Shown piece after piece: positions 13,656 through 57,480 of a stretch of 64,000 nucleotides of DNA. The stretch spans positions 1,751,749 through 1,815,748 of the forward strand of contig FN649734.1 in assembly GCA_000310025.1 (NCBI GenBank). The letters are read 5' to 3'. Position 1 is the first letter of the stretch. The number at the start of each line of letters is the position of its first letter. A program made the position numbers and the translations under genes. Source of the DNA: Ectocarpus siliculosus (taxonomy: Eukaryota > Sar > Phaeophyceae > Ectocarpales > Ectocarpaceae). Below the pieces are notes generated by a model that was not told the DNA's origin, did not search any database, and saw nothing but the letters and a program-made list of their open reading frames with translations.

Positions 13656-14506
13656 TGCTTCCATGGACGTCAATGTCAATTCCATGGAAGTCAATATCGA
13701 CTTCCAACTTCCATGGAAACTACATGTCTTCCATAGAAGTTTTATGGCTTCTATGAAAGTCAGATTGACTTCCTTGGAATCTGTTCGTCTGTTTTGGGTT
13801 CCAGCTTCCATGATGCTTCCATGGAAGCGGTAAACAACTTCCATGGAAGTTGATCCGCTTCCATGGAAACTGATCCGCTTCCATGGAAGCACCCGATGTC
13901 AACCGATCGTTGCTTCCATAGAAGTCGCATTTCGGACTTCCACGGAAGCGCGACGAGCTTCCATGGAAGTACTACTTCCTCCATTGAAGCTCGTCGCTCG
14001 GCGGAGTCTCTGCCACTTTCATGAAAGCACGAAAACGTTCATAAAGGCAAACCGACTTCCGTGGAAGCACCGAAATTTCCATGAAAGCAACTTCACGAAA
14101 GCGTCTGGGCATGAGGTCATTCCAGACCCTAACCCTAACCCCAACTCTAACCCCAAAACAGACCATGGAAGCTATCCCGAGACTGACGAATTCCATGGAA
14201 GCAAACCTAAGCCTGTTTTGAATAGCTTCCATTGAATCCTAAGGTTAGACATCTATGGAAGCTATTCCACTTCCATGGGACTTCCATGGGACTTTCGTGG
14301 AAGTTAACTAATGGAAGTGGCACATCCATATGTCATATCTATCTCTACATAGTTGCACGGAAGTAATATTGCTTTCATGGAAGTTTCGTTTTGCGCTTCC
14401 ATGGAGTACAAAAAGTGTAGCTACCGTTGAACGTCGTGTCAGCCTCCATGGAAGTTAGATCTCTCCAACTTCCATGGAGGCTGATTATATACGTCCATGG
14501 AAGCGG
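13656..14506. repeat. TTCCATGGAA palindrome array, first copy
   Basis: About 34 exact or near copies of the self-complementary word CTTCCATGGAAG lie in 850 bases, with irregular spacers of roughly 8-45 bases. Some variants change both arms symmetrically (CTTTCATGAAAG); others have lost one arm or the centre. Because the word is palindromic it is present equally on both strands. Open frames here (with recurring FHGS, PWK and SMEV) are products of the repeat, not genes. A second array of the same word lies at 18.5 kb. Confidence 0.93.
14126..14157 (+). repeat. Short telomere-like hexamer run inside the palindrome array
   Basis: Five consecutive CCCTAA-like hexamers (CCCTAA twice, then CCCCAA, CTCTAA, CCCCAA) interrupt the palindrome array. 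The type matches TTAGGG telomere repeats. It may be an interstitial telomeric relic or chance. Confidence 0.5.
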
Positions 14507-15750
14507 TACATATTTGTCAAATAGTGTGGGAGATCGCGGGGTTTGTTCCGCACAACAATGAAACGGCGGCTAAATATTTTTTCCGACAACATTTGTCGAC
14601 AACGTTGGCTTCGCGTGGAACGGATCGATTGTTTGTAGTGTGGATCGCAGAGATGGAGTTCAAACCCCACGGCCATATCTTTTGTCGGAGCCACACTTTC
14701 CCTTTATGCCACACGTGCGAGTCGGCAACTGGCACCTACACAACAGGGGTATCCATTGTGACACTCTCGCTCGACGCTGGTCAAGGGGCATGGGGCCTCG
14801 GAATTCCTGGAATGAATGGCCGTGACGGTGTTCAACACTACGGCCATATGCCTTCTGTGCCATGTTCATCGAGACGCCCTAGCCTTACCCGAATATGGAC
14901 GGCTTGCAGCCTCACCAAGATAGAGCATATTCAAACGAACTGTCGGAGTGTCGCAAGACGAGACGGACTTAGCAGAGAAATGTGATTCATGTTGGCACGT
15001 CATTGGTTCGACAGAGAGAACCAAACTCGCGAAAATCATTCGGCTGCTTTGCCGGTTGCCTCTGTTCATCGTACGGCGCGTGAACTTCGTATTCTCAAGA
15101 TGGGCACCCGTGCGATGTCGGAGGGAGAGCGAGCTTCTCTTCAACTACATTACGGCCTGTGAGGAAAAGTTGCCCCACTCATGTCGCGGGGGGTCAACGC
15201 GCTGAAGGCCAAGGCGTCCGGCAAATCGCGAGCGGGAAGCAGGCACGGTTTTAGTTATGCGTGTGTGGCACTTCTCTCTAGTCGATGATGCGCAACTATG
15301 TAGACAATGCCACAGTCCTCTCAAACGTCGTACTGTAAATACCCCCCGATATCCTCTGTGCGCTTCTGTACGTCCACTGTGGCGACGCGGTCAATCTTCG
15401 TAGTCGGTGGTGTTACGACCTGCACGTTGAAATGTGTTGACTACCCGTGCTTGTGCAGGAGACGAGACACCGTGGGTGGATCTCTCCGTTCGTATGAGGG
15501 CCCAAAGTGTTCTAACGCCCTTGCAAAAGCATGTGTTTGCGTGTCTCTGCCGCGATTGTGCGAGCGGTGGTTCCTTTTTTGACCTGAAAAGACTACTATG
15601 GCGCTGTCCTGCTTTGCTTTGTGACGCAGCGACTCAAGGGAGGCGGCCTCGGTCGAGGAAGGCCCGCGCCACCAACACCCCCACCGTCACCACCACCACC
15701 GCCATCATCATTACTACCCCATGTCACGTCTACGGCGACTGCGACTGCGA
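14507..15750. other. Unassigned stretch between palindrome array and satellite
   Basis: No gene is supported. A plus-strand frame near 14985-15250 (MGTRAMSEGERASLQLHYG, then after a TGA, MSRGVNALKAKASGK) looks like an eroded coding fragment interrupted by a stop. Its family is not recognisable. Confidence 0.3.
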
Positions 15751-15754
15751 CCAT

Positions 15755-15799
15755 CACAGCCACAGCCACAGCCACAGCCACAGCCACAGCCACAGCCAC
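15755..15799 (+). repeat. CACAGC hexanucleotide microsatellite
   Basis: About seven and a half perfect tandem copies of CACAGC. It produces apparent His-Ser or Ala-Val repeat proteins in open frames on both strands, which are rejected. Confidence 0.95.
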
Positions 15800-16019
15800 G
15801 ACCAGCGTCGCGGCCACCGTCGCATCCGCATCCGGAATTGCCTCCGCCACCGTCGTCGCCAATCGTATAGGATGTTTCAGGCGAGAGGCGGCGGCTTGTA
15901 GTTTCGGCATGTTTTTCTCTCTTTTCCGATAGGCTCGAGTGTGTCTGCCTCTTCATATCCTACACCGGGGTTGCACATTCTTTGGGGGGGGGCGTTGCGT
16001 GATCTGAACAGGTCGAGGG

Positions 16020-17655: not shown

Positions 17656-18490
17656 GGGTCGCATGTTGATGTGTAGAGCGTTCGATCTGCATAAAGTCTT
17701 GGAAGCGGTTGGGTGTCGTCAAGCAACATGGCTGACGTCATCAGGAAGACATGATCACGGCGTGCGTGATTTCACGATTCGAACCTGGTCGACTTCTCTA
17801 ACTTTCCTCGATCGTAGTCACACCTACTGGCCTTGACAAACCGCCGAAACCATCCTCTTGCTGACGTTCTCTGTTCGTGTTGGATACTTTTTGTGCGAAA
17901 AGGGAACGTCACCGCCTCGCTTTGTATGTTCTTGGCCGCCACGTGTGCCCTGACCCTTGTCCGTCCCCCAATCCCCAGGTAGCTCTTCTCGCTGGCGTCC
18001 AGATCGTCTCTCCATTCGGCGGGCATCTTCGAGTCCGGCTTTCCCTCGTGCGTTGGCGGTGCCATAGTCAAGGGATCGAGCTTTGGTTACGTAGTACAAC
18101 GGCGAAGAATTGCCACTCGGAGAATGACAGTGAACCGGAGTAGTAGCGTACAGAGAGTGACCGTTGGAGGCGAAAATGTATTATTATTATGGACGCAGGA
18201 AAACAAGAAATGATATCGGCGGTTGTCCGGGGAAATTCGGTTTGAAATGGATTTGGCGGTTCGGGGGCCGTCTCTGGCTTGGCAAGTCTCATTTTCAAGA
18301 CTTACTCTCGCTCGCGAACGAACATGGAAGGTGGCAATTAGAAAGCCTTTGATTGTTGGCATGGGATGCCTAGGAGGTCACGCGTTCCGTGGGGCGCCTC
18401 TATGCGACTATGCAAGATTGAATTCGAGCCCCGTCTCAACGCTCTCCAGGACAACCACCCAATCTCATACACTATTTGACAAATTAAATG
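17656..18490. other. No gene seen
   Basis: Unique-looking sequence between the satellite and the second TTCCATGGAA array. Open frames overlap on both strands without motifs or matching splice sites. Confidence 0.4.
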
Positions 18491-18494
18491 TATT

Positions 18495-18990
18495 CAGCTT
18501 CCATGGAAGTTAATTTTGACTTCCATGGAAGCTGAAGCTACTTCCATGGAAGCTACTCCCTACTTCCATGAAAGTGACACGTTTTTACTTCCATGGAGGA
18601 AGCGCTGCGCGACACTTGCATGGAAGTCAAGTTGACTTCCATGGAAGTCAGTATTGAAAAAGGTGAATGTGCCACTTCCATGGAAGTCGAATTTCCATGG
18701 AAGTCCGGACTTCCATGGAAGTGGCGTAGCTTCCATGGAAGTTACACTTAGACTTCGATGGAGGCTGCTCAAAAGAGGGCAATGACAGCTTCCATGGAAG
18801 TAGTAAAGCTTCCATGGAAGTGAGATCACGGACTTCCATAGAAGCTCTTTCGGATGGAATGAGGTAGCTTCCATGGAAGTCCACAACGGTTTACATCGCT
18901 TCCATGGAAGTCGTCGACGAACACTTCCATGGAAGTCATCGAACGAGCTTCCATGGAAGTATATTGCGTCCATCCAACTTCGATGGAAGT
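18495..18990. repeat. TTCCATGGAA palindrome array, second copy
   Basis: About 20 copies of (A/G)CTTCCATGGAAG(T/C) in 500 bases, denser and less diverged than the 13.7 kb array, mean spacing about 25 bases with no fixed period. The frames rich in FHGS, PWK and SMEA on the minus strand are by-products. The two arrays bracket about 4 kb containing the satellite. Confidence 0.93.
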
Positions 18991-19807
18991 AAAGGAAAAA
19001 ATAATCAGATTTTAACAGCGGAGGGAGGCTCGTTTTTTTGTGGAAAATTTTGCTAAACTTTTCGATTTAAGCAACTTTCTTCGAAACAACACACCACCAC
19101 CAGGCACCACACACAACACATCATCAGGCACCACCCACACGCACACACACAGTACAAGGTAATAGCCTTGGGAGGCGCGTCCAGTTTTCTTCTGTTGCTG
19201 CTGTTTCTGTCTTTGATCCGAAGGATAGTTTAGCCTCCCCCATGCTGCCCCCTCACGGGGTCCCGGTTCACGGCAGATAGAAGTGTTTTGTGTTTTCAAC
19301 CGCACTAAGACTGACATCTTTTCATTGGTCAGCCGGTTAGCGCGGTCGACGCTAATAATAAAAACACACACACACAGTCTGCAAGAACATGTCCAGCGGC
19401 CGCCCAAATAAAACCCAGCGCCAAGCGCAAAGGCCCTGGAGTTGGCGCGCCACCAACACAAAAAGGGGGAGGCTGCACGGTCAGAAAACCAAGTTGGGGT
19501 TTGGTTGTATATTTACTTCCTGTCGCTGTACTGGTGCGAGTTCGTGTGCTGGGGTTGAGGGGGCAACACAGACATGCACACGCATGCATGCACGCACACA
19601 CACTCAACAGCAGAGTAGTGGGAGCGCTGTGATCAAGGGTGCAGCTGTCACGCAGCGCACCACAAAATACAGCAGTACGTACATGCGAACAGGGGAAGTT
19701 CGTTGGGTGACTGTCGTCCCACAGCCAATCACATGAAGCCGCCTTAAATCGGAAATATTCGCCTGCAGGAAGTTTCCAGGAAACTTTCCGGTTCCCACAC
19801 AATCTTG
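18991..19807. other. Non-coding stretch with CA repeats and a dispersed repeat
   Basis: Holds short CA/ACAC runs near 19135, 19365 and 19595 and one copy of dispersed repeat R2 (19236-19375). No gene is supported. Confidence 0.45.
19236..19375 (+). repeat. Dispersed repeat R2, copy 1 (tRNA-like core)
   Basis: Shares with 61745-61860 and 62107-62226 an order of blocks: a GGGTCCC motif, TGTTTTCAACCGCAC, then GGTCAGCCGGTTAGCGCGGT followed by AATAATA. The last block resembles the D-arm/A-box of a tRNA gene, so a tRNA-derived SINE is likely. Confidence 0.6.
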
Positions 19808-20255
19808 TATATGGATTCACAGTTATAAAAGTGAATATTTGACTGTTATAACAGTGAATTGACATTTATAACAGTCGGCTCACTCCTTTAACAGTCATTG
19901 TTATTTCACTGTTATGACAGTCAGTTCATTCACTTTCATAAGAATCAGCTGACTCTTATGATAAGAGTCAGCTGACTCTTATGAAAGTGAGGTGTCAGTT
20001 CACACACTGTTATAACAGTCAGCTGACTCTTATGAAAGTGAGGTGGGTGCACATTACTAACAGTCAGTTTGGGGACTGTTATAAAAGTGAAACGACTGTC
20101 AGCTGACCATTATGAAAGTGAGGTGTCAATTCAAACACTGTTGTTACAGTCAAACACTGTTGTTACAGTCAGCTGACTCTTATGAAAGTGAGGTGGGTGC
20201 ACATTACTAACAGTCAGTTTGGGGACTTTTATAAAAGTAAAACGACTGTCGTGCA
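19808..20255. repeat. TTATAA-centred palindrome array (CTGTTATAACAG family), copy 1
   Basis: Dense array of CACTTTTATAAAAGTG- and ACTGTTATAACAGT-like words, many perfectly self-complementary. An approximately 84-base block (20018-20101) is duplicated at 20168-20252, so the array also grows by segmental duplication. The two main words differ at symmetric positions in both arms. Confidence 0.92.
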
Positions 20256-20867
20256 AGTCACCTTCAACAGCCAGGCGGTAAAAATGACTTTGATTTTGGA
20301 GCAGTTCTGCAGCTCTCATCAAGAAACGGAACGATGGGACGAGCACATACTTGCCCAAGCGCATCATTGCATCATAGAAATATGCAACTTCAGTTACAGC
20401 TTCCAGGCGCATGACGTGACGAAGGTAATTGCGATATGGCGATCCTCGGGCAGGAAAGCCCGTACGTGTTGTGCACCGCATAAATAAGACGAACCCCCTG
20501 TGCAGCCAGAACGATTCTCACGTGTGTGTACGGCTGGTTCACCTAGGTTCGCACATACCGCGAGCAAGACGTAAAGGGGTAAAGGCACACTACACCCGCG
20601 GACAACACCTTTGGTACCACCGCGGGCCTTCCTCCGACGACGCAAATGAACCCCACGGCAGATGAACAACCTCGATGAAGGTCGTTGAGTGAACCACTCA
20701 ACCGGTGACAGTAACCACTCAACCCGTGACAGTAGGTCTCTGTCGGGGGTCCTATCCGACGATCGGTGAATGCCAATCTAGACCCGCACAAACAGCGGTG
20801 AACTGCTGACTAAACGCAAAGGTTACACCACAACCAGAACATGTACAGCATCTCTCCACCACCGATC
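20256..20867. other. Unassigned stretch beside the KDZ gene
   Basis: A minus-strand frame at 20270-20440 (contains EVAYFYDAMMRLGKYVLVPS) reads naturally and might be a small exon or a relic, but no motif or splice partner was found. Confidence 0.3.
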
Positions 20868-23800
20868 TCAACCATCGAAGTTAGGGTGCTGGCTCATCAG
20901 TTTGGACCTGAGAAGGGTCTCATTCCGAACAAGGATAGCGTGGTTGAGGAAGAAGTCCCTCAGCACTTGAGGCATCTGTTTGACGACGACCCCAAAGCCT
21001 AGAAAAGCAGGGGAAAAGCATGGCAGCAAAAAAAAACAAAAACACGACGTGGGCGCAAAAATCGGTCTTTTGATGGTGTGGGCGTGCATGTCGGCAAGAC
21101 AGTCGGAAGACAAGAGACAGACCAGATCGCACAAGAACATGTATACCCCGGACGTTTCGTGTGTGCTGTCTCGCATTAATGAAAACACCCTGTTGTGCCG
21201 TCGCCAGGGAAACGCCAAGTCTCTGTTATGAAAGTGAGAATCACATGTTACAAAAGTGAACCAACTGTTATAAAAGTGAACCCACAATAGTAAAAAGTGA
21301 ACTCTTTTTCCGGGGTCAACACAAAAGACAAGAGGGCGGGTGAGCACACATGTCCTTCGGGGCTTGTCCGCCAGAGCGTGGGATCGTCGCGGGCCTCCGG
21401 CGAATTGAAGATAGCGCAGTTAATCTGTCACAGTATATCGCAACACGAGTCCCAGGGCACGAGGCAATCGAAGTTACATGACGGGGTGGCGAAGCAAGGT
21501 TAGCTACCGCAAGCATCGGGGTCCCCGCACATGTCGGTCGGGGTCTCCGCACAGGGTGCGCGGAGAAAAAGCGAGTTCCAAATATTTAATTGACTTTCCG
21601 CACAGGTATCGCGGTCGCATGCCTTTGCAATCAGAATCTGACCAGGACTTTTCAAAGGCGTCCGCACATCCGATACTTACGGTAGTCAAAGTACAGTTGG
21701 GACATTGTTTCCCACGCGTTCACTCTTTCGGTTGTGTAGAAGGAAATGTCACTCGTACCTCATTGTGAGACCGGAAGTGGAATCTTGAGGACGCCACAGC
21801 AAGAGGAAGCCAAAGATCAATGACCATGACAAAAGGGGTCGGCGGAACACACGAAAGCGGCAAGGGAAACGTTAGCAGTGCTACTTGCAGGTCGCCGTGT
21901 AGGTCGCGGTCAGATGCAGCGGTTGGGCTAGGACCCGGTTCGCGAACAGGTTGATAAGCGGTGACAAAACATGACAGGCAAGCCCCACGTGAAGTAGCTA
22001 TGACCAACTACAGAGGTACAACACACCCGCTATTGGTATTGGTCCCCTACCTGGAGCTCAGCAAAACGAGTAGACACGTCATCGGTGGCACGGGAAAAAA
22101 GGGAACTAACAGTTACATATAACAACCTGTCCACGATGTAGCGACACATCAGCCAGCCCAGGTGAGGTGCAAGAGGCGGTATTCCAGGAGCCGGCACGCG
22201 AGGTCGTAAAACAGGATTCCAGGCCTGGAGAGAGGGTCAGGCCACATTAGATCCAAGGCCGCGCACACGCACTCCATGCCCTCGTGGGCTGCAAGAGCAG
22301 AGATTCCCGAAATAATACCGCAGTTGAGGGTGCCCACCAGATGACCGTATGAGTTGTGCCTTGAAAACATCACTCGCAAGAGTTTGATGTCGTCAGGCTG
22401 GGTGGACAGGCAGCAAAAGGGAATATCGACGGGTCAAAACAAAGTGTTGTTTTTCGAGCGGAACGAGACGTTCAGTAATCGGTGCTTCAGCACAAGCAGG
22501 GATGGACACAACATGCAAACTCTCTTTGCCGTTCAACATATTTTACCAGGTTCAGGTCATGCAAACTCTCTGTGCCGTTCAACATATTCTACCAGGTTCA
22601 GGGTTGTACGCATGTACGCGTGTACTACCGCCGTCGGACTCGAGGCCGCTATTCACGGAAGGAAAGGCAAACCTTTTCGGGACGAGTCATAGGTTCCTCG
22701 AAGGCGATGGCACGCCGATAGACAAACACACGCCCTGCTGGTTGACAACATCACAAACGCCAACAGATTATATAAGTTGTGTACCAGTAAGAGCGTACGT
22801 CGGACATACCTCCACTTCGATGCCAGCAGCCCGCATCCTTTGCTTGCACCGGTAGTCTCCGAAGTTGTTGAAAACTTTCGACCGCCTTTCCATGTCAGCG
22901 TGTTCTGCGCAGGCCAAGCTCCCATCCTCATGGTCGTTGAGGCACTCGGGGGAGGTAACGGCGCAGCGATGTTCGTAGATAGGAGCGTGGTGCTCGCAAA
23001 ACCTTGGGTTTGTTAGACAACAGGCGGGGGCGGCAGTGTCGGTTGCGACGGCAAGGATGGGGGCTTAATTCGCAGGATGCAAGTGCTGGGAAGTGCAGGC
23101 TGTAGTAGTCGACATAAGAGACGGCGTTCGAGGCATGCATGCACGCCTACACGTCAGACGTGCGAATAACAGGGTACACACCGTTCAAGGAGAGTGGCAT
23201 AAGGGAACACAGATAACACGAAACGTATGAAACGATACAGTTTAACAACTTACTTAGCCTAGTGTTGGACTTGCTGCAACCGCCAAAAGATAAACTGCTT
23301 ACCGCCGAAGCGCGTTAAGTACACTCGCAAATCGGCGACGTAACCGATTTCGTACTCCTCACCTGGCCCCACTGAGGTTGGGCAGATCATGGGGGCACTC
23401 ATGCACCGCACCGCAGCCCCCCCGGGTGTTGGTGATGCCGTCGATCACAGCCGCTTTAATGGAACACAGCTGGCCGTCGACCTCGATTGTTTGGCGGCAG
23501 AGGTCGCAGCTGTGCCTGTGCCAAGCCACGTTCTCCCAGAAACCCTCGTTTTGATCCGCCATCAACTCACGGAGACCCTTCCAATGATTTGCCCCGCTTT
23601 GTTCCCCGTCGATGTCTCGGACCCATACCAACCGTGGGTTCCCCACGACAAGGGTCAACCCTTCCGGCGGGAAGGTTAGCCAAGGACCTTTGTCGCAATA
23701 AATCGCACAAGGAAGTCAGGGGAGCGCAGTCAAGCTGCAGCAATACGGAAAACAGGGAATAGTGTGCAATGAGCATCATCCAACGATGGCGAAGCAAAGG

Positions 23801-25087
23801 GAAACCAGCTTCGAGTGCGATGGACAACCAAAACTAGCCACATTTGGTGGTCCCGTTTCATTCGGATGCCAACAAGGTACACCAACACGGCACCACCGTC
23901 TATCCGCCAACACAGCGAGTGATATACGCTGTGAAACAGTCGAGACGGGTACTGGCATGCGTATCCCAGCAGTGTTGTGATGGCCACGCCCGCGACAATG
24001 CAATGCAGATACGCACCTACGCCTTGCGCCATTTTCAGAGTCGCCAGGAGCGACCAACACTCCAGGAGTGTGTCAACCGCCAGCGGCGGCGATCCGTGCC
24101 CTCGATCACGCAAGACTGTATCGTTGTAGACGTTGCAGATGGCAGTGAAGCCGACTCTGGTTGGGGGGGTTGTTTGACATGAGGTCGGCGACAAAACGAG
24201 GGGATACGAGAAACGAGGGGGTACGAGGGGACAGTGTCAGCGGACGTCAACGCAGTGTCAACGATAGAAATAAGAGCTTGCAGGCAGAGGCAAGGGACGA
24301 GTTTGCGAGCGAAGGGGGATAGCTGCACCAGTGGGACAAAAGTTATGCCGAACAAAAAACGCAACTTGCGGTGGGCGAAAGTCGAGGTCCAATGACAAAA
24401 CAGCGTCCCGTCTGGATGTACCCCTTGTGTCAATATCGGGGACACTTTCTGAACCCACCTCATCCTCGACAGAGTAAGAGCGACTTGCGTCAGGAACGCC
24501 ACGGACAGAACGCACTTCCCGGACTTGTTGCTGATTTCTTCGGGGGTGCCTTGGTCCCAGGCGTAGAAAACGTGCCAGGTTGTGCCATCCGGACCACTCT
24601 GACGGCGTTTGTTCAGGTAGTAACTGGACCCGCACTCTCGACAAGTCTTGACATAGTGCCGCGTAGGGTAGCACTCGTCCACCCCATAAAACGCTGATTG
24701 GAGAAATGTCACTGTCATGGCTACGTCGTCGCAAGACTCATTCTGGCAGAACACTCCAGCATACTGCACCGATCTCGCTACAAATCCTGCAGCAGCTTGT
24801 GAACCGTTGGGAAGAGATCTCTGATACGCCGCGAATACGTTCCCTACGCCCCCCCCATTGTCACACAAGTCGACTAGGGCCTGGTACTGCGACTGTGCCC
24901 GGAAAGATGCTGCTGCTGCCCTACTCATGGTCAGGCTCGTCGGGTTGTTATTGACGTCTCTCGACGTAGATTGGATTGCTGCTGACACCTGACACGCAAC
25001 GACCAGAACCAATATGTCTAGAGTGGGCGTGCCATGAAACAAACCACCCTCCTGAAGAAGGATATCCGCCAGGTTGAAAAAACTCAT
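20868..25087 (-). CDS. KDZ transposase with CxC5 and CxC6-like zinc clusters (multi-exon)
   Basis: Kyakuja-Dileera-Zisupton transposase. In-phase exons: 25087-24459, 24156-24017, 23687-23363, 23002-22810, then one from 22397 to about 22149; last exon 20998-20868. The first exons show the CxC5-like cluster (CRECGSSYYLNK, EISNKSGKC, FTAICNVYND). The third and fourth give the CxC6-like cluster: SCDLC, AAVIDGITN, CGAVHECPHDL, ARFCEHHA, HRCAV, CAEHAD. The KDZ core follows: GILFYDLACRL, RFHFRSHNE (near 21785-21765) and the terminal DFFLNHAILVRNE. Start chosen at ATG 25087 (MSFFNLADILL). The exon starting at 22397 reaches TGA at 22151 without an obvious donor, and the exon with the conserved asparagine/EQ motif was not located, so the gene may be inactive. 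A small TTATAA-type array sits in an intron at 21224-21303. Confidence 0.82.
21224..21303. repeat. Short TTATAA-type palindrome cluster in KDZ intron
   Basis: Four AAAGTGA-bearing words (for example GTTATAAAAGTGAAC) in 80 bases, the same family as at 19.8 and 45 kb. It lies between KDZ exons. Confidence 0.8.
22513..22604 (+). repeat. Two-copy 46-base tandem repeat
   Basis: The unit ATGCAAACTCTCT...ACCAGGTTCAGG occurs twice, 46 bases apart, with two or three differences. It lies in an intron of the KDZ gene. Confidence 0.85.
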
Positions 25088-26524
25088 GTCTGGATCAAGT
25101 CCGGGGGGCACAACACCGTCTGCGCCGTGCCAACAGAGGCGAAGTTGACGACGGGCATGTGCGAAGCGAATGTTGGATTGTTTGGCCAGGTTTGGGCCAA
25201 CAAAACGTGCGTGGCGTGCGTGTCGAATGTGTTGAGCTAGACAGGGTTAAGCTGATCAGACACCCTCCGAGTGTTGTGCATGTCGACGACGGCAACCTGT
25301 TGGTAGCGTGCACGTGGAGGGCGTGTGCGTCAGTCAATTTGTGGACTACGAGGTACGGCGAGGAGGCACTGACGCCGGGCGCCTGCGGCACCGTCGCCAG
25401 TTTCTTCTTCAGTTATTACATGTAGAAGCATCTACAGGCTGGTGTGCAGGCTGGTGTGTACGAAACTCGAGCGCAAAAGCTGCGACGGTGAGGCTGGTTG
25501 GGGTGCACTCCCGCGGGACGAGACCCGCCAACGTGCAACACGCGAGGCACGTTTCAAACAGATCAAGTTTCACGTCGCGTTCGACGTTCAGCTTGCGATA
25601 CTCCTAACCCTGTATCGCCGCTACTGGTCGCTACAGCATGTCCATCTCTCTATTGTACAGGTACAACGTAGTCGTGGAGTGCTGCTTACCAAAGTGCAGC
25701 GAACACGCCTCACCCGACAATGGCAGTCCAGCAACAGGCACCCAAGATGAGCCCGGGGAAGTGCGTCCCTCTCCAACAGTCAGAAGACGTATACGCCGCG
25801 GGAGCTTCCTCCCGCGCAGCGCGGGGCCTGTCTGCTGCCGTTGCGGTGCAATGCGGTGCAACTGGGGGCCTCGTGCACGCCCGCGCAAACCGATTCCCCC
25901 CTTACTTTTTCTTTCGCAGTGCTCCCTTCACTTTCGCGCAAGTGGTGCGCGGAGGCTCCTGGCGCAAGACGTCGTGGAGATCGCATGCTCGGTGTCTTCC
26001 TCACAAGCTCGTGCGGAGGATCCCACATACCTTCGAGGCCCATCCCGTCCTTCGTGGCATCATGAGCGGAGCCGAACCGAAGGTTAGCAGCATGCTGCGG
26101 CGTGATAAGGTATGCGTGTGGTGTGCGGTCGCATACATCATGACCACCCTTTTGAGCGCACTGCTGCAGGCCAGTACGTAGAGGATGCCACGGATCACGG
26201 GCTTTGTAGCGCACTGCTGCAGCCCGTACGTAGAGGATGCCACGGATCACGGGTGCGGTTTGAAGCTTAGGTGAACCAAGCCCCCGTCGGCCAGCCAATC
26301 ATAGGCGGGGGATTTGGGCTAAAATTATAGCTGGGGGCGTGACAATAAAACCAAGTGAAGTTTGACCAAAAACCTGCTGTTCCACCACGTGTTCCGCCGC
26401 GTGGAACACTTTTTTCCACCGCACTTTTTCAAATGGGGGCCAAGACAGCGATCAGCACCAGGACACATACGACACAAACGACCACGGTTATGATCAGACC
26501 GAGCACGCCAGGAGTGTAACGAAC
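25088..26524. other. Spacer between KDZ gene and plus-strand ORF
   Basis: No gene is supported. At 26157-26251 a block of about 40 bases containing GATGCCACGGATCACGGG is repeated twice. Confidence 0.4.
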
Positions 26525-27267
26525 ATGGCAGATCCACCTATCCCTCTCGCCGCGACCAATGGCAATGCTCCTGGTGCTCATGGCCGAAGACGGCTCCTCG
26601 GACCGCGAAAACCGAGGCAGAGAAAAGGGTACGCCGCCTTGTATGCCTTGAAGCCCGCAGAGGTTTGTTTCAAGTGCGCGTACGCCGAACGCAGCGGGTG
26701 CACGGAGGGGACAGACGGGAGTGACAGAGGCTACAGTGGAGCGTGGCATGCAGCAGGCCAATTGAGGGCAAGCCGTACGTACGATCATAAGCACTTCGAG
26801 CAGTATTGCGCAGCGCACTGGCCTGAAATCATGGAAAGCACGAGCGGAGGCCGGGTAGCGCGGCCGCTGACTGCAGGGGCAGCAGCGGGTGCGTCTTCCG
26901 CGGCTGAACCCGGCTCACGTTCCGCAAGCAGGACGAGCGGTGCGGGTGCTGACATTGACCAGGTTCCCTTGGTCGCCACTTTTCCTCGCCCAGGAGGGGC
27001 AGAGGTTCAGCTAAAGAGGCTATCGGACTTGTTTTTCAACGGGCAGTCCTGCCCCACGAAGGAGAGTGCCGATGCTCCACGGGTGTTGTCGCCCCGAACA
27101 CAGCGGCACACGGAGCTCACGGATAAAGCGGTTAGGGAGGCGGTGGCGAAGGTTGTGCATCCGCTCAGGAAAGGGATGCCGAGGCTGACGAAGGATGGGT
27201 CACTGTCGGACTCCGGGAAATGGGGAGACGCTTGGAAGGATCAATCCAAATGGCCTGGGGCGTACAT
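26525..27267 (+). CDS. Unrecognised ORF running into the Mutator-like element
   Basis: Begins MADPPIPLAATNG and reads openly for 247 codons before entering the left inverted repeat of the Mutator-like element at 27268; the frame continues to 27490 only through transposon sequence. It has a possible zinc-binding cluster (CFKC at about residue 50, a cysteine ten residues later), an Ala/Ser-rich middle and a basic, Trp-containing end (KWGDAWKDQSKWPGAYM). Function unknown. It may be the 5' part of a gene split by the insertion, with the exon at 35425 as a possible continuation, or a first exon whose donor was not identified. Confidence 0.5.
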
Positions 27268-27366
27268 GATAAAAAGGTTCTCCAGCTGGAAAACGCCTCC
27301 CAGAACCACACCCTACAACGCCTCATTTGAATTGAACGGGTCACACCGCCGCAGCAACAACGGCTG
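27268..27366 (+). repeat. Left TIR of the Mutator-like element
   Basis: Starts GATAAAAAGGTTCTCC and ends CAACAACGGCTG. It is the reverse complement of 35242-35340 with no mismatch seen. Confidence 0.92.
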
Positions 27367-27507
27367 CATCCGCTTGAGACCTATGGCAGCAGTAGCCGCG
27401 CACGTAAAACAGCAGCAGACAACCCACATGGACATGGATGATGTGGACGACGTAGTTTGGAAATGTTGCAGTGTAATCGAGGTACATTGATTTGCCAGTG
27501 CTAGTGT

Positions 27508-27725
27508 ACCGTATACGACACAAGATAACACACCCCCTCGACCGATTTTGAAAGCTCGAGTTATCAACAGCAGAAAGAGTCGCAGCGCCGAAAACGGGGG
27601 CGTTGAAGCTGTCTGGTCGAGAGCTCTCCGAAAGTGTATCGTTTCGTTTATGCATCTTCTTCGTCGTGGCGTAGTCGAGCTTTGAAAATCGGTCCAGGGG
27701 GTGTCATCTTGTGTCGTATACGGTA
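27508..27725. mobile_element. MITE, copy 1 (218 bases, TIRs about 50 bases)
   Basis: Left end TACCGTATACGACACAAG is mirrored by the right end CTTGTGTCGTATACGGTA; inverted similarity extends through CACCCCCT and TTTGAAAGCTCGA. It is non-coding. A second, diverged copy lies at 46625-46845. This copy is nested just inside the left MULE TIR. Confidence 0.85.
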
Positions 27726-35170: not shown

Positions 35171-35241
35171 CTGCTGTCGTAGACTGGTATGAGGCTGGTG
35201 TGAGCTGCTGAAGGGAACGCCGCTACTATCGCGTTGGCCGC

Positions 35242-35340
35242 CAGCCGTTGTTGCTGCGGCGGTGTGACCCGTTCAATTCAAATGAGGCGTTGTAGGGTGT
35301 GGTTCTGGGAGGCGTTTTCCAGCTGGAGAACCTTTTTATC
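35242..35340 (-). repeat. Right TIR of the Mutator-like element
   Basis: Reverse complement of 27268-27366. It ends CCTTTTTATC at 35340, and the transposase ATG lies just inside it. Confidence 0.92.
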
Positions 35341-35424
35341 TCGCCAGCTTTGGCGTATGCACGACCGGCGCCACACCCCGCCGCCCGGTTACAACCTTGT
35401 TGCATTGGTCTGTGGTCTCTTCAG

Positions 35425-42720: not shown

Positions 42721-44834
42721 TTTTTTTTTTGTTTGCCCTTTAGCCGAAGCCTAGCGATATCGTCGGCATATTCGTTGTGACTTGGAGAATTGTAGCGGCA
42801 TGTTCGTGTTGTAGGCTGGCCTCCTTTAGATTCGGCGCCAATCAACGGCGCGGGAGGGGGGCGGAAGGAAACAGCGAGGGAAGAGAGCTAACGAGAAGAG
42901 GCCGACCGTGTCCCACGGCATGTTGCGGATTGAAGCTGACTAGTATTTTTATTTTGTTATTTTCTCTCCCCCCCCCCCCCCCCCTTGCCGTTCGCGTTTA
43001 GACTGTCTTCGTGGATATTCTGGCCGCTGTGCGAGTTGGTGTTCTGGTCTTTTGTTTTATTTTATTTTGTTTTATTTTTTAGACATTTTAATTTGCTTTG
43101 ATTTTACCTCACATACATAGCGTGTAGAGGGGAGCGGAGGGCTAAAAAAATATTTTTGCTTCTGATGGTATTTTTCTCTTGTATTTTACCGCTCTGCTGA
43201 CCCTTGGGGTCCATTTCATTTTGGTATGCCTTTTCTAGGTATGTTAACCTGTGACCACGGAAATTGACCGAGTCAAGTGTTGGATTAGTACGGAGAGATT
43301 CAGACATAAAGAGGTCCCGGATAGAGAGACCGGGATGTTTTTTTTTTATGTGAAGAAAACAACAACAACAACATTCGTGTTGACTTGGAGGTTTTTGGTA
43401 GCAGCGTGTGATGCGCATTCGCGATGAGAATATCACGTGAGGCTTAGGAGATCTAAGGGCTCAGTGGTTGGGCTTTCGTGGTGATGTCTTGTGCGGGTGT
43501 GTGGGGAACAGGTGCTACATCTTCGATTGTGCCCAAATCGTTGCGAGCTTGCTTTTATGTGCAACAGCAGGGGGGCGGGCTGTTTGCATATTTTTGTTTT
43601 TTTATTTGATTCTTCACCAACGGCAGAAACTTCTCCAACGGTAGAAACACGGGCGTCGTGTAGGCGAGTGCGCTCCCTATCGTTTAGTGGATGTCGGATA
43701 GTTTATTTGGAGGAAAGATCCGACGTGTCGCAGTGACTGTACTCGTGGTTGGTGCCCTTATATTGAGAGGTTTGTGTTGCTTGTATTTTGGGACATTGAA
43801 AGAACACCGTGTGTCATGCGATCTGCGGTTAAAGTCAGTGAGGCTCAGAATGGAGGTGCATGAGATCATTGACTGGCTGTCGCAGATTGTGTGTTATCAT
43901 TATGTTCACAAGCAAGGGCGGTTTCTTTTGTGTTGGCGTACTGCATACAAGTATCATATGCCATGCCCCTTGTAGCAGTACAATCTTTTCATGTTTTGCG
44001 TTGACAAGGTGTTGAATTGCCTTAGGATAACGGCAGATGTCTGCACTGTATATTGTCTGTTCCCGTTTTCTAGTGGCTTTATCTAAATCCCACGGAGCGG
44101 GGGGGGCGATGGAATGAGAATTATTGATGCAAATGCAACGACAGTTGCAAGCGTCATTTTTGTGTTGGGTTTTTGGACGTTATTCTGTCTTTGCAGTCCT
44201 GGGTATTTCTGGATGTTGTATTGAAGGAAGGATTTGGTATGTGCTGATTAGTAATTGGTTGGGGCCTATGTGCTTTCCGAATAATGATTATGTGCTGACC
44301 AAGAGGTTGAAAGGTACGGTGTTGTTTGAGGTTGTTGATTCTGATTTGATCACGCGTTTCCGGTATTGTTTGTTGTTCTGCAAGACGCAATGCTGATGTA
44401 ATGTTGAATCTTGTTGGATAGTTTTCCAAGAATATTTCTGGTTTTTTGACGGATTGAGTTTTCTCAAGGGGGTAAGGTAAGTAGGCTCTTGGCGTATGAG
44501 GTATATCTTTGATAGTATATTTTTGTATGTTTCAAGTTGCCGTTCCTGGAACGGTACATGCATGTAATTCGCTTGGACGACAGTACCTTTATCCAAGCAG
44601 GGGGCTGTTTGTGGTACTTGGGTGAAGATACTGGTCTGGATGGATTTCGGGGATACGCAGTTGGGGTAGTGGTATGACCATCTGGTGTTGCGGAGACCCT
44701 TTCACCCTCGCAGAGACCACAACAAAATAACACAAGAGCAAAAATAAATTCAAGGGGCCCCTTCGGAGATTGTCGGCAGCGTGCTAAGCATTAGCCCTAG
44801 CGCCAGCCCACAAGCAAAACTTTCATCAAAGGAC
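42721..44834. other. AT-richer non-coding stretch with a dispersed repeat
   Basis: No gene is supported. It contains long C and T runs, a (TTTTA)-rich stretch near 43050 and, at 43190-43390, a minus-strand copy of dispersed repeat R1. Open frames near 43.7 and 44.2 kb are AT-driven. Confidence 0.4.
43190..43390 (-). repeat. Dispersed repeat R1, copy 1
   Basis: Read on the minus strand it has (GTT)n, TTCACATAAAA, TCTCTCTA, a GTACTAATCCAACACTTGAC block, GTGGTCACAGGTTAACATACC and an AAGGCATACC motif, in the same order as 45717-45930 and 59125-59290. Confidence 0.7.
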
Positions 44835-45425
44835 ACGCAGTCAACCCTATGTTCATATGACGTCACTTGCGTAAAGGTGGCGAAAGTCACGCACGTGATA
44901 TGTACCGTGCACTGACCATGCACTTTAATGAAAGCGACGAAATCGTTCGTCACTTGCCTTCACTTTCGTAAAAGTGACGAAAGTCACGCACGTGATAGGT
45001 ACCGTGCACTGATCATGCACTTTAATGAAAGTGAAGAAATTGTTCGTCACTTGTCTTCACTTTCGTACATGTGACGAAAGTCACGCACGTGATAGTATCG
45101 TAGACTAGTTCTTCACTTTTATAAAAGTGACGTGCAAGTCACTTTCATAAAGTATCATTCACTTTCATGCCGTGAAATGACTCTCGTAATAGTGATTTGA
45201 CTGTTGTAGGAGTGTCTGTGAAAGTGCGTGTGGCTTTCACTTTCATTGTGGGAGGGAGTGACGTTTACAACAGTCAATATCACTTTTGTAAAAGTGACTA
45301 TCACTTTTATACCATCTTATGAAAGTGATGGTGGCTGTTATAAGAGTGCTCCTCACTTTCATACGAGTGCTCCTCACCATTGTAAGAGTGACAGTTCACT
45401 GTTATAACAGTGAATCCATTTACAC
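44835..45425. repeat. TTATAA/TCATGA palindrome array, copy 2, with 97-base tandem unit
   Basis: Dense AAAGTGA/TCACTTT words, many perfectly palindromic (TCACTTTTATAAAAGTGA, TCACTGTTATAACAGTGA). The left half (44860-45100) is also a tandem repeat with period 97: AAAGTCACGCACGTGATA recurs at 44884, 44981 and 45078. Same family as the arrays at 19.8 and 21.2 kb. Confidence 0.92.
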
Positions 45426-45716
45426 GATAATGTGGGAACCCGAAACTTTCTAACCTCAAAATCTGTTTCCTTATCTCAGCAAATTTGGAGCCCCAGTCCG
45501 AAACTAAAACTGTGCAATGGAGGAAGAATCTCGCAAAACTTCGAGGTTGGTGATGTGGTTCCTCTGACGATGAAGATGGTGGGGGCAGGCCAGTAGAGTC
45601 GTGCATCACATCTTCGATGGCAGAGGCCGAAGTTCGCAGTAGCCTAGAACGGAGAGGTACCAAGAAAAAGTCGCCGCAAATGCACCCTGTCCAGATTCTA
45701 TATCCGGGCGGGTGCC

Positions 45717-51324: not shown

Positions 51325-52639
51325 AGGGAACTTTCACCGGGGGATTGGATAAGCAACAAGAAGAGTGCTCCTGTGAGACGAAGGGGCGCTTTGCCGTAGA
51401 GGTCACCGCGTGTTAGGAAAAGGTCAGGGGTGGGCTTCGGTTAGGTCGGTTAGGTGATTGACCGGAAACCCTCAAAGTAATAAAAAAAGAAAGGTTCATT
51501 CATGAGCATCACAAATGGTGCCACGCCAACACGATGTGGATTCTCAAATGCATACATACATACTCCACACGTTGACCCGTGTACTTTCAATGCAGGACAC
51601 CTGATGCCCAAGCGTATCCCAACGCATTCCCCTACCCCTTCCCAGCATAACAATCAGTCAGATGCAAAGATGGTCACCGAACTGTCTGTTGAGCTTGTCG
51701 CCCTCGGGAAACCGTAGACATACAAGGTGCCTCTGGCGGCTTTCGCCGCCTCGCTCATTGGATCGATTCCAAGATACACTGCGATGAAGATGAAAAAAAA
51801 TGGCTTCGAGCGGAAAAAGAGAGGGTTGCATTACTCGATTCGTGTCACCCGACTATAATCATTGCACCCAAAACCGAGTGCACCAGCAGCAGCATCTTCA
51901 TGGCAAACCGCCCAATGGGTTGAAAAAGAAGGTCAGGCGCAGCGGAGAAATAATGAACATTCACGTACGTGTAGAGGGGCGGTCGTGGAGAGACGGAGAG
52001 AGAGAGAGAGCACAGCACGAGGCGGAAACGAAATAGGGCGGAAGGTCGAGTGGTGAGACAGACAGGATCGGAATAATTACGACCTCCCGGATATATCATG
52101 GGTTGAACTATGAGAAGATGTGTTCCGCATGTGAGAGCCGAGAGGGAGAGACATGGCCGGGTTGCGTGTAGAATGTGAGAGCCGAGGGATAGAGGGTAGA
52201 TATCGATTCCAAGAGAGGCAACTGCTGTAAGCTCAACATTCATTCGTTTTCGTGGGAGGTAAGCAATATGTTGAAACGTCAACAATAATCCTGGCTCGAA
52301 AAGGCCCCGGGAACTGCATATTCCTACATATTGTGTGTATACATCACTCACTGTAACCCGGGGAATTTTTCGTGCAATAACCCGATGCGTTATCACCCGG
52401 CATGCGGCACGTGCGAGAGCTGACGACCTATATCAGTGCCGAGAGACAGACTACTGGCGCGTGAGCCCAGTGAGAGAGACTGGCATGAAATGTAATGTGT
52501 ATGCAAGTGTGCAAAGGAAATGGGCGAAAGGTTCCCGAGGGAGCGAGCCATACACAGACGACGCAAACGGAGATAAACGAAGCCCTGGAAAGATCCCGGA
52601 GAGATGAAATTTTTCAGGGTGCACCTCGGCACTAGTTTT
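51325..52639. other. No gene seen
   Basis: Contains GA-rich runs near 51990 and 52140 and the word ATGTGAGAGCCGAG repeated at 52130 and 52173. No supported exon. Confidence 0.35.
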
Positions 52640-52975
52640 TTAGGCGGATTCAGGGGGGGAGGTACTTCAATGTGGCGGTACTTTTTTGGCGGTAATTAGG
52701 CGGTATTTCGTTTTCCGGCGGTACTGCCTTTGGCGGTTCCCTTTACTGCCAATTATGGCGGTACTTTTCTGGCGGTACCGCAATATGTATGGCGGTTCTT
52801 TTTAGGCGGTTCCCGGTACCTGGTTTTTTGGCGGTACTTCTTCGGCGGTACTACTGCAATATGGCGCTACGTTTTAGGCGGTAGGCGGCATTTCGTTATT
52901 CGGCGGTACCGCCTTCGGCGGTTCCCGGTACCACCGAATGTGGCGGTAATTACCGCCAGTACCGGGACCGCCCAC
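52640..52975. repeat. GGCGGTA array with GGCGGTACCGCC palindromes
   Basis: About 16 GGCGGT(A/T) words in 335 bases, most in one orientation and separated by T-rich spacers. Several close into perfect palindromes (GGCGGTACCGCC twice, TGGCGGTAATTACCGCCA once). It ends near 52975 with opposite-strand GACCGCC words. No coding content. Confidence 0.9.
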
Positions 52976-55231
52976 CACGGCACGAAAAAAACGGCGGGAA
53001 TTTTCCCGAGGTGTACCCTGGAATTTTTGGATGCATGCATGTTCTGGTTCCACGTAGTTACAGGAGTACATGGAGGGACCGGTCGCCCCGCTTGTCTGGT
53101 GGGTACTCTCCCAGCCTGCTGAGTGCGTGGTTGTGGGTTCAAGTCCCGGTAGATGAGTATCTTTTTATCACGAAAAAAATCCTGGTCTAAGGTTGGAAGC
53201 GACGCGCTGCAAAGCTCGTTGTTAGTAAACTATAGTTTAGATCGAATTCATAAGTCGCGAGGGAAGGGATTGCTGTACCCTCTCGCGATAAAAATATCTC
53301 AGGCAGGAACCGCAGGAGGGGGTCCAACCCCCCCTCCCCTCCTATGTGACTCCGGTTGGGTCGTCTAGCTAGTAGAAGTGGAGGATAGGGGCCAGAGCGG
53401 CAGACGACAGAGTCCAATGATGGGAGAAAAAAAAAATTACGGCACGGCTAAACACCCCACCGGTGGGGTAATTTCTTAACCGTCTAGGGTAAAGGTTGTC
53501 CTAGCGGCTTCTGCAGGTGGAAGAGGGTGAGACACCTCATTTTTCGTATCATTGATGTGGTTCGCTTCGCTGCGTGATCTAAAGCAAACAAACCTGCTGG
53601 GTCGACCATGTACTCCTCACTCGCCTACCTCTCGACACTCCAGTTGCATGCACACATGCATGAAGCCCACAATGACCGACTCCTTTTCACACATCACCCA
53701 TTTGAGCTTACAAACAAGGCATGACACCATATATCAGGCCAGCTCTTTCTCAGTGTTCTTCACCCTTCACTGCTCGCACAAACACGTCGTGATGGTTCCC
53801 TGGCCGACATCGTCTGTGATGTCCGCTACGGTATACGTCCGAATTGCATATCGTTGTGTGAGCCGGGTGTTTGTGGGCAGCGAACCCTGAACACAGGACG
53901 GGCAACCTATCTATGTTCAAATGGCTTTCTGACGCTGGCGGGTTGAGGTTTACGAGAAATTCACTCGCTGCTGGTCGACTGAATTCCGGATGAATTCCTT
54001 CCTTTCTTCCTACAGCAGTACTGCTGTACAATCGTTGCTATCCCCAAAGTACGTACATGAAAAAGTTCATGTATCGACTATTATTGCCGCACCGATTGGA
54101 GGATTGATTGGTAACGCGCGTGTTGGTTGTATGGGACGAAATTTGTTTTGAACACAAAGTTTGCATACCACGAAATGAAATGGTCGAGAGGCCGCGAACT
54201 ACAGGAGGAGTCGCCAAGATGAATCTCACGGCTTTTTTTTCGGGTTCGAAAAAAAAGTGTTTTTGGCACTTTTCAGGAGAACGCGCGGTTCGAATTATTC
54301 TCCGTTTTTTGCAGCAGAGTGGCAGCGCGTGAACGAAAGTGGGTTTGCTCTGTTTTTGATGGAAACAAATTATATGATGAGTTAGAGCCACTGAACAGAG
54401 TTGCCAAAATGTCGATTGGTGCTTTACCACCACCAGGAAATAGTTTTTGGATATCCTTTTATGGATAGAAATATGGCCGTGTACACCCTGATCAAAACAA
54501 TACTTACTTTCCGTTTGGAATTTCATCAATTCCTCCATGCGCTGATACAGTTTTAGTGTACTCGTGGAGAGCTTCCATATTATACCAGGTTTAGTGTGTG
54601 AGCATGCTTACTTGATAGCGTCGAGCATAGCTGCACAGCACGCGTCGGCCGTTCTCGCAGACCCACCGGGGGCGGGGGGGGGCGATGCTTCACCCTACAC
54701 TATAAATAGTTCCACGTACCAACAGTCAGAACCAAACACAGAACAAAAGAACTCATAATAGACACACACGAAGCAGTCACAGTTGGAAGCGACCATACCG
54801 ACACGGTTACCATCATCACATAGAGAATGTTATGCCCAGTTACCCCACTCTCCGTGCGTGACTTCCGAAAACGTAAATTTCTTGATATGTGGCCTTGACC
54901 TTTACTTTATGGTATCACCTCAGGTGTTCGCCTCTTTCCTTTCTGTAGGTCACATAAATGCGTACGGACTCGTTTCCATTATTTTTCTGCGAAACGGGGG
55001 GATCTGCATGTTATCTGTTTTTTGCCATGCTATTTTTTTATCACAGTAGTGCTCATCTTTGTCTGCCAGAACTGTTGTTTCTTTCCGATTGGATACGTAC
55101 CTGAGAGACGAAGAAATGTTTAAGGGAGCATGGAATGGATGTGACAGCAAAGCACCGATTCGAACGGATCGTCCGCTTCTTATGGCCTACGGTACGCGCA
55201 CGGGTCTTCGACAAGGCCAGTTTCCGGCCAT
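52976..55231. other. Largely non-coding stretch
   Basis: Includes a tRNA-like relic at 53085-53150. Open frames elsewhere are short and overlap on both strands. No gene is supported. Confidence 0.35.
53085..53150 (+). other. tRNA-like relic
   Basis: GGGTTCAAGTCCCGG (B-box) preceded by CTTGTCTGGTGGGTAC. The T-stem has four pairs but no acceptor stem forms, so it is probably a pseudogene. Confidence 0.3.
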
Positions 55232-55269
55232 ACTGAGGAAATAGATACTCAATATGGCCGAAACCGGCC

Positions 55270-55369
55270 NNNNNNNNNNNNNNNNNNNNNNNNNNNNNNN
55301 NNNNNNNNNNNNNNNNNNNNNNNNNNNNNNNNNNNNNNNNNNNNNNNNNNNNNNNNNNNNNNNNNNNNN
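55270..55369. other. Assembly gap (100 N) with repeated flanks
   Basis: AGGAAATAGATACTCAATAT followed by GGCCGA occurs just before (from 55235) and just after (from 55370) the N run, so the contigs overlap or a tandem repeat was broken here. Confidence 0.9.
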
Positions 55370-55405
55370 AGGAAATAGATACTCAATATGGCCGACCCCG
55401 GCCTG

Positions 55406-56282
55406 GTGGCATTGCTTTCGCCACGTGTAACACCCGTCCACAACTGCAATTTGCCGTGCGTTGTACTCACTCACTCCCCTAAGCCCCTCCACCTCCCTCA
55501 ACAAGATTAATAAACCGCCGTTTCTTCAAGCGCTTTCGCGTCAAGCGCTTTCGCCCTCCCCCCTCCTCCCCCCTCCCCCCCAACTCCGTAGACGGCTGCG
55601 GGCTGCGGTACAGGCAAGCTCGCCCAGGGGCTAGGTGGATTGTACTGTACCCCCGTGCATGAAAATTGCCTCCTTGATGGTACGATTTGGTATGGGCTTA
55701 TTTCTACAGGGAATTGTATGGCGTTGGGGGGGGGGATAGGGCCTTCGTATCCCCCCCCCGCGGAGAGGTGCAAAAAAGAGTATTGTCGGGTAGGTATTGG
55801 AAAAAACAATTGGGTGCCCTTGCGCAACCAAAAGGATGGACATTATCGGCAGCATGTATGTATTGTGGTCTATGTATGTGCCGCCGCTCTCTCCCCGCCC
55901 CGCCCGAGGATTGTCCCGGAGGGCGTTCCCAGTTTGTGCCAGACGGTATTCCCGGCCCTCGTAGCTCACTGGACGCAGCCCCGTGTCCACATCATCTCCA
56001 TAACCACTGCTTACTTTTCGTTGTTTGCCGCACGCTCAACTCCAACTCGTGGACTATATCTGGATTAACGGTCAGATCCGCCTCACTTACTTTTGGTCCC
56101 CCGAGCTCTGTAGATCTTCCTGTTCTAACTCGGGGTCGGGGTGTGGACTCGCGGCGCACAAATCCGGTTAAGAGCCGCTCTTTACCAAATTTGGTGGAAA
56201 ATGGACGGGACTTTTTTTTTTCACAATGATCAGCTGTTGGTGGTGATGCTGCTTCTGCGGGACGGGGCATATACATTTCGTA
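55406..56282. other. No clear gene
   Basis: C-rich runs near 55560 and 55750. A minus-strand frame at 56040-56190 (contains STELGGPKVSEADLTVNPD) looks protein-like but has no partner exon. Confidence 0.3.
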
Positions 56283-57480
56283 CGTTTCCATGGAACGTCA
56301 AATGGAATTCCATCTACTTCCTCCATGGAAACTTCATGGAAGTCCGTGGACGTTCATGACATACCATGGAGTCCCGTCGAAGTCCATTCCGTGAAATCCC
56401 GTGGGCTTCCACGGAACTCCATGGAATGTCTTTAACGTCCATGGAATTCCATGCAACATTTCATGGACGTTCACGACATGTATGTCATGAAAATTTCATG
56501 AAAGTATTCCATTAAGTGTCATGGAACGTTTCATGAAAACATTTCGTGGACGTTCATGACAGGGGTTCATGAACGCCCATGAACATTCACGGAATGTGTC
56601 ATGGAACGTCGTGCATGTAATATTTCATGAACTTTCATGAGTGCCCATGAAATTGTAGTTCATGGATGTCCACGGAATGTTTCTTGGAAGTCCATGGAAA
56701 TTCATGTCATGTTTCATGGACGTTCATGGAACTTGTCATGGACTTTCATGAAACATTTCTTGGAAGGCCATGAAACGCCCCCACAGACAAGCAACGAAGA
56801 AATCAGGGATGTTGGGTCACCCACATTTTCGGCGGTTTTGCTAACCCACCGATGGGGCCCATGGGTGGCCCATGGGCCGCTCATGGGCACCACGTCGTGC
56901 CCATGGGATGCCCATAGACAGTCTACGGGCCGCATAGGGGCCTTGGTGCCCACGGGCGAGGAGCCCATCAGCCGCCCATGGGAAATGCCCACGATCAAGC
57001 CCATGGGCAGCCCATGGTGGGCACTTCCTGGGCAGTTCATGGCCTGCCCCATGGGCTTTTGCACTTTTGCGTCATGAAGTTTGAGAAACATGCCATGGAA
57101 CTCCATGGACTTCCATGAAATGTTCCTTGGTTTCCATGAGCGTCCGCGGTTTGTTTCATTTATGTCTATGGAAGTTTCATGGAAGTCAATGGAAGTCCAT
57201 GAACTGGTACGTGGGCAGTTTCACGGACGTTCATAAAACATTCCATGGACTTCCATGGATTGCTCATAGAAGTTCATTCAATTCCATTGAAGTCCACGGA
57301 AGTCCATGAAAGTGTTTCATTAACATTCATGAACATTCATGGCTGTTAAAGGATGCCCACGGATTTCGTTTGTCGAACACCATTTCGGCTTCTTGGGAAG
57401 ATGACGTGTATGGTCGGTGGAGTTTTCCATGGACTGCCGCCATGAATAGGCGTTTATTCATGGACTTCCATGTGGACTTC
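56283..57480. repeat. CATGGA/TTCATGAA palindrome-derived array
   Basis: Roughly 70 words of the types TCCATGGAA, TTCATGGAC, TTCATGAAA and TTCACGGAA fill two blocks (56283-56790 and 57065-57480), spaced about 10-15 bases, denser and more degenerate than the TTCCATGGAAG arrays. Between the blocks lies a GCCCATGGGC array. Confidence 0.9.
56848..57062. repeat. GCCCATGGGC palindrome array nested in the CATGGA array
   Basis: About 15 words built on GCCCATGGGC (with variants such as GCCCATAGAC, GCCCACGGGC) in 215 bases, sharply bounded by CATGGA-type sequence on both sides. The frame with recurring HGPL/PWA/MG residues is an artefact. Confidence 0.88.

Follow-up and report, generated by a model that had tools for sequence, protein, structure and literature searches.

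We propose, with a probability of roughly three in four, that the arrays of short, often palindromic words in a 64-kb window of the Ectocarpus siliculosus genome (contig FN649734.1, positions 1,751,749 to 1,815,748; the window is this whole stretch of 64,000 nucleotides) make up the ends of DNA transposons from four, likely five, families, here called A to E, in which the words lie mostly near the element termini and are predicted to be binding sites of each family's transposase or of a partner DNA-binding protein. An earlier note on this DNA had described six separate arrays of unrelated palindromes and attributed all of them to one palindrome-making mechanism. Transposase binding sites, one option on its list, fit what we found, in that the arrays stand at element ends with inverted termini and target-site duplications. 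The count of six did not survive: the arrays at 19.8 and 45 kb are the two ends of one element, those at 39.0 and 39.9 kb likewise, and the GCCCATGGGC patch lies inside the element at 56-57 kb. Genome searches returned the best candidates only, and all copy numbers below are therefore lower bounds.

Termini and target-site duplications

The largest element, B, gains exact borders from its ends.

19789..45442, no strand: family B transposon with nested insertions, 25,654 bp; termini common to genome ends, identical 8-bp duplication on both sides
19781..19788, plus strand: target-site duplication AAACTTTC, left of B
45443..45450, plus strand: target-site duplication AAACTTTC, right of B
19820..20270, no strand: B left-end word array (CTGTTATAACAG, CTTTTATAAAAG and CTTTCATAAGAG variants)
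44850..45415, no strand: B right-end word array; palindromic 10-mers not above the shuffle maximum
21224..21303, no strand: small internal group of B-type words, with two of the three words outside the outer 700 bp per side

One terminus is common to the array ends at 19.79 and 45.44 kb, and its pattern identifies at least 67 ends in the genome, against none for the reversed pattern. These ends are of two types, and each of the 13 inward-facing pairs that we read has one of each type; the pairs came from a longer list of ends (ten hand-picked from the pattern listing, two fetched earlier, and the window copy). An identical 8-bp duplication lies at most 3 bases from the ends in 12 of the 13 pairs, the window copy included, compared with 0 of 156 mismatched pairings. 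In the 25.65-kb copy, 29 of 32 words fall within the outer 700 bp on either side. The remaining 24,254 bp have three words, and two of them lie at 21.2 kb.

Nested in B is a second, much shorter element, whose two ends are the arrays at 39.0 and 39.9 kb.

38958..40010, no strand: family C, an element of 1,053 bp within B, with AATCTTG half-sites at either end and a TGA duplication

Of 183 candidates in a genome search, 40 were scored and gave 48 matches. We took 30 loci and scored all but one, L068, where no end was found; identical 3-bp duplications occur at 26 of these 29, and 25 of the duplications are TNA. C may be called Harbinger-like by this duplication, the sole basis of its likeness to the Harbinger elements with TNA duplications reported from Ectocarpus (PMC12477816). 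At one further place (G000:C489:303194-306974), several C matches stand head to tail, a possible tandem array of the element.

Family A is represented in the window by two incomplete copies whose termini face each other.

13656..14543, minus strand: family A copy 1; at the right edge of the TTCCATGGAA array is a left-type terminus, and no second terminus was found
18459..18992, plus strand: family A copy 2; a terminus bounds the TTCCATGGAA array on its left, and the copy is cut at 18992

Copies of A are about 0.9-1.0 kb long, with termini GATCTCCCACACTATTTGAC and GGGTAACCTACACTATTTGAC, and the joint terminus pattern occurs at at least 100 places in the genome, against one for the reversed pattern. 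An exact 8-bp duplication was found by script at 3 of 8 end pairs and at 0 of 56 mismatched ones; at L093, which the script missed because it had taken an internal match, TCGTGGAC can be read on both sides. Rows left out were L092, the same site as L091, and L095-L097, L099 and L100, where not both ends had flanks. L091 and L092 carry the same A element with the same flanks on two contigs, which may reflect a contig that is duplicated or allelic in the assembly. We rejected the idea that copies 1 and 2 are the two ends of one ordinary element, since their termini, 3.9 kb apart, point towards each other. It is also unlikely that an element occupies 14512-18484 and leaves the arrays outside, because the same termini enclose an array elsewhere. 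The only candidate for an autonomous A element, a ninth end pair on C74 (155-192 kb), was set aside, having no duplication at its presumed ends, and C39 likewise had no duplication. An A pair of 7.9 kb on C25 (2305162-2313102) has a duplication matching at 7 of 8 positions. The roughly 105 bp adjoining the array of copy 2 (18993-19097) recur at 88-92% identity in at least 11 other places and seem to be part of another repeat that cuts this copy.

The array at 52.7 kb belongs to a short element with ends of another kind.

52615..53020, no strand: family D, 406-bp hAT-like element with a GGCGGTA half-site array; window duplication 7/8

Its termini are CAGGGT..ACCCTG, and the CAGGG terminus is what we take to be a hAT sign. 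Among 30 loci fetched, 18 copies had both exact-pattern ends; an exact 8-bp duplication is present in 9 of these 18 and in 1 of 306 mismatched pairings, and one matching at 7 or more of 8 positions in 12 of 18 and 14 of 306, the exact count being the better measure because the flanks are A/T rich. Its ends and 8-bp duplications thus point to a hAT-like element, and four hAT families have been reported in Ectocarpus (PMC12477816). Beside one D element, near 2735-3235 of locus L037, there is a GCCCATGGGC patch (four copies in 500 bp) like the internal patch of family E.

The last of the five is E, likely a transposon family by its ends.

56264..57504, no strand: family E, CATGGA/TTCATGAA arms; right border uncertain
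about 56850-57060: internal GCCCATGGGC patch of E, a segment common to E copies

E copies have GGGCATGTACATTTTCGTACTTT-like left ends in common, and their right ends are related.

Palindromes, spacing and symmetry of the words

In exact form, TTCCATGGAA was counted 23 times across the window, with 22 copies standing at 13.68-14.19 and 18.50-18.95 kb; CTGTTATAACAG occurs three times, CTTTTATAAAAG twice, GGCGGTACCGCC once, GCCCATGGGC twice and TTCATGAA seven times, and both copies of ATCTTGGCCAAGAT lie at 39.0 kb, with none at 39.9 kb. We compared palindromic 10-mers in each region with 200 dinucleotide shuffles, which upheld dense palindrome arrays at 13.65-14.51 kb in A (9 against a shuffle mean of 0.8 and a maximum of 5), at 18.49-19.00 kb in A (16; mean 0.45, maximum 4), at the left end of B at 19.80-20.27 kb (7; mean 0.55, maximum 3) and at 56.28-57.49 kb in E (9; mean 1.6, maximum 6). 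Counts did not exceed the shuffle maximum at 21.2 kb (0; maximum 1), 39.9 kb (0; maximum 2), 45 kb (2; maximum 4) and 52.7 kb (3; maximum 4), and the same holds at 39.0 kb with 10-mers (2; maximum 2), where 12-mer palindromes do exceed shuffles (2 against a maximum of 1). These five places are built mostly of half-sites (AATCTTG, GGCGGTA) or of degenerate words. Palindromes are in excess in both A and E and at B's left end, and the 39- and 52.7-kb arrays are mainly half-sites. The whole window has 106 palindromic 10-mers against 60.4 +/- 8.6 in 20 shuffles. In a background of 168 kb flanking the C and D loci, D interiors included, 16 overlapping 500-bp windows hold at least five palindromic 10-mers, and these are mostly AT runs.

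The absence of a fixed period, another of the claims, is right in that there is no satellite, and incomplete in that the words have a clear preferred spacing. In the window, 25 of 37 A gaps (up to 45 bp) measure 19-25 bp, as do 58 of 89 in four other A copies, compared with a random share of 24-28% and 99th percentiles of 53-56%. At other B ends, 147 of 184 gaps are of this 19-25-bp class. Gaps in E peak at 10-13 bp and again at 20-25 bp, and only 1 of 52 falls at 14-19 bp, where random placement gives 18.6 on average and never fewer than 8. A period of 10.5 bp fits B and E well (R 0.64-0.67). One could still regard the arrays as ordinary tandem satellites with diverged units, since Tandem Repeats Finder reports brief runs in A, each of 2-4 units at a period of 18-25, and since adjacent A spacers are slightly more alike (0.38-0.39) than random pairs (0.28-0.31). 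However, the periods shift between neighbouring runs, the spacers are near random in sequence, and the arrays stop at transposon termini with duplications, so that we consider a satellite origin very improbable. The slight likeness of neighbouring spacers makes it likely that some array growth occurred by local duplication.

Word columns agree more than spacers across copies in A, where under two word definitions 0 and 5 of 1,038 circular shifts do as well as the true alignment, in C (1 of 1,056 shifts) and in D (11 of 1,570). Within words, mirrored non-consensus changes show no excess at 21 of 22 position pairs and are often below expectation (313 A, 255 E and 295 B words), with a slight bias against mirrored doubles because words were picked by match count. 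This pattern bears on hairpin-templated copying or conversion, in which each half of a palindrome would be rewritten from the other, so making or keeping the palindromes. Copying of this sort would account for the strong palindrome enrichment at the left end of B and throughout the A and E arrays, and one B position pair does have an excess of mirrored changes (71 against 57.9 expected, p 0.012). With the 21 other pairs silent and the C and D arrays made mostly of half-sites, it is largely refuted, and we give it hardly any credence. A single palindrome-making mechanism for all arrays, as put forward in the earlier note, is not supported: the families differ in duplication length (8 or 3 bp) and in termini, two of the five have mainly half-site arrays, and substitutions within words are not mirrored. 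Collectively, the spacing, conservation and mirrored-substitution results fit symmetric dimer sites with a preferred spacing.

The words are also not all unrelated, as had been supposed. Those of A, B and E have similar outlines (ACTTCCATGGAAGT, ACTTTTATAAAAGT, TTCCATGGAA/TTTCATGAAA), and it is the C and D words that are unrelated to these. The likeness between A, B and E, whose termini differ, could mean that a host protein, such as a transcription or silencing factor, is recruited to several transposon families through the words. Nevertheless, the words are family-specific, stand at both ends beside the termini and are kept in copies of different interior length, as would be expected of sites needed in cis for mobility, and the C and D words do not share the outline. 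A host-protein site is an unlikely explanation, though a better one than a satellite or hairpin copying.

A likely KDZ-type transposase gene in family B

Between the ends of B lies a gene whose translation points to the KDZ (Kyakuja-Dileera-Zisupton) transposons.

20868..25160, minus strand: likely B transposase gene, several exons; weak CxC5 match, weak CxC6 match in one homologue, copies inside other B end pairs

Its exon pieces lie at 24453-25090, 23359-23691, 22768-23064, 22149-22433 and about 20868-21000, all with approximate borders. The open reading frame (ORF) at 24035-25246 on the minus strand matches CxC5 with E 0.0015 and 19.1 bits, under a cut-off of 26.9, and four homologues of this exon were found. 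The downstream pieces as query gave five further proteins, one of them named Ectocarpus fasciculatus; one of the five matches CxC6 (E 5.3e-5, 23.8 bits, cut-off 27.5), and the C-terminus of one protein (P0009) resembles by eye the translation near 20.9 kb. CxC5 and CxC6 are cysteine clusters associated with KDZ transposases. In a profile scan, four joined exon pieces had no KDZ domain match; a genome profile search with PF18718 was silent, and so were its controls. A predicted structure of the CxC5 exon was uninformative (mean predicted local distance difference test score, pLDDT, 37.7).

Copies of the B ORF at 65% identity or more are present on at least ten contigs, the window's included, and seven of these ten (the window, C33, C151, C16, C6, C10 and C241) have a B end on either side of the copy. 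On C113 there is a single end, on C158 the copy is not bracketed, and C472 has no end among those listed. The 8-bp duplication found at 12 of 13 B pairs is a feature known for Zisupton (PMC12730594). Although the profile matches are below threshold, the B gene is likely a KDZ-type transposase. By analogy, from their similar words and 8-bp duplications, we would guess that A and E depend on KDZ-like transposases as well.

A second candidate was an ORF at 28.4-29.8 kb with a sub-cut-off SWIM match (E 0.012). It lies in an 8,073-bp stretch nested in B (27268-35340), MULE-like by eye, which has perfect 99-bp inverted ends, no duplication of 8 bp or more at those ends, and at least eight near-identical genome copies, the window's included. 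We set this ORF aside as the B transposase because seven of the eight copies, sought with a 233-residue part, have no B end pair around them among the ends listed and because it belongs to the stretch with its own inverted ends. Accessory ORFs of B, in two pieces (37373-38644 and 40447-40872) with element C between them, have no Pfam match above cut-off; similar translations occur, by eye, in the B elements L069 and L070.

Predicted binding sites, known systems and neighbouring repeats

The clustering of words near the termini and the variable interiors put the arrays in a position like that of known subterminal transposase sites. Each palindromic word would be bound by a dimer of the transposase or its partner, and since neighbouring words are roughly one helical turn apart in E and two in A and B, several such dimers could line up along each element end and bring both ends together for excision. 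Elements with other interiors have kept the terminal arrays, which would make it possible for them to be mobilised in trans.

Several observations weigh against this interpretation. Binding itself is a prediction from sequence. In the window copy of B, 12 of 20 gaps are at the preferred spacing, equal to the 99th percentile (60%) of random placement, and B word columns have no significant extra conservation over spacers (67 of 320 shifts, and 49 of 306, do as well); the one mirrored position pair is also in B. The 10.5-bp fit of A is moderate (R 0.31-0.38, best at 15.75), for which reason we only infer helical phasing as the cause of the spacing. The contrast in conservation between words and spacers of D is helped by the variable interior. 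Neither window copy of A has a target duplication. For E, no duplication was established at the ends of the window copy, and the one clean 8-bp duplication, at L108, is a single case read by eye with no control, which is why we call E a likely and not a demonstrated family. Regarding the transposase, both cysteine-cluster matches fall below their cut-offs, and a profile scan of three of the CxC5-exon homologues (P0001-P0003) gave no CxC5 match. A genome profile search for the KDZ catalytic domain (PF18758) was silent as well, and because all 14 control genomes were equally silent it says nothing on KDZ.

Subterminal repeats are a known kind of transposon feature, and the arrays can be placed beside two described systems. 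In Hermes, a hAT element, subterminal repeats form a quasi-palindrome on which two zinc-finger BED domains bind cooperatively (PMC10368747). Family D resembles Hermes in its hAT-like ends and 8-bp duplications; Hermes has few repeats at fixed positions, whereas the arrays described here have tens of words per end. CACTA/En-Spm elements, of up to 20.5 kb, have family-specific short repeats near both ends that are reported to be recognised by a TNPA-like protein (PMC2613891). Our arrays share this arrangement, but CACTA elements have 3-bp duplications and CACTA termini, in contrast to the other termini of A, B and E and to their 8-bp duplications, which were seen at some end pairs of A and in one case of E.

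The closest parallel to B itself is in the same genus. Giant KDZ elements of Ectocarpus reach 30.3 kb and carry nested insertions (PMC12477816, 2025), and B is like them in its length of more than 10 kb, its nested unrelated elements, its extra genes and its weak KDZ cysteine clusters; dense phased palindromes are an added feature of B. The main text of that study contains neither 'subterminal' nor 'palindrom', and 'KDZ', 'transposon' and 'subterminal' were not found together in the literature searched, from which subscription papers were mostly left out. We found dense palindromes with preferred spacing at putative KDZ-type ends to be undescribed. It is tempting, if rather tentative, to go further and suppose that the giant KDZ-type elements and the smaller A and E families, which would depend on related transposases, have helically phased platforms at both ends, made of 10-16-bp palindromes, and that dimers of the transposase polymerise there along a single face of the DNA. 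Each family's word would be the address that decides which transposase moves which element. If so, transposons of up to 26 kb would recognise and pair their ends in a way that has not been reported before.

With this work, six puzzling clusters become mappable transposon families, and the 25.7-kb element is given exact borders. Dense, preferentially spaced palindromic ends also suggest a concrete model, open to testing, of how distant ends of very large DNA transposons are located and paired, and of which small elements a given transposase can move.

Finally, the interval between the two A copies holds a tandem repeat at 16670-17655 (349-bp unit, 2.8 copies, 98% identity), with a run of N and further, related copies immediately upstream of it.

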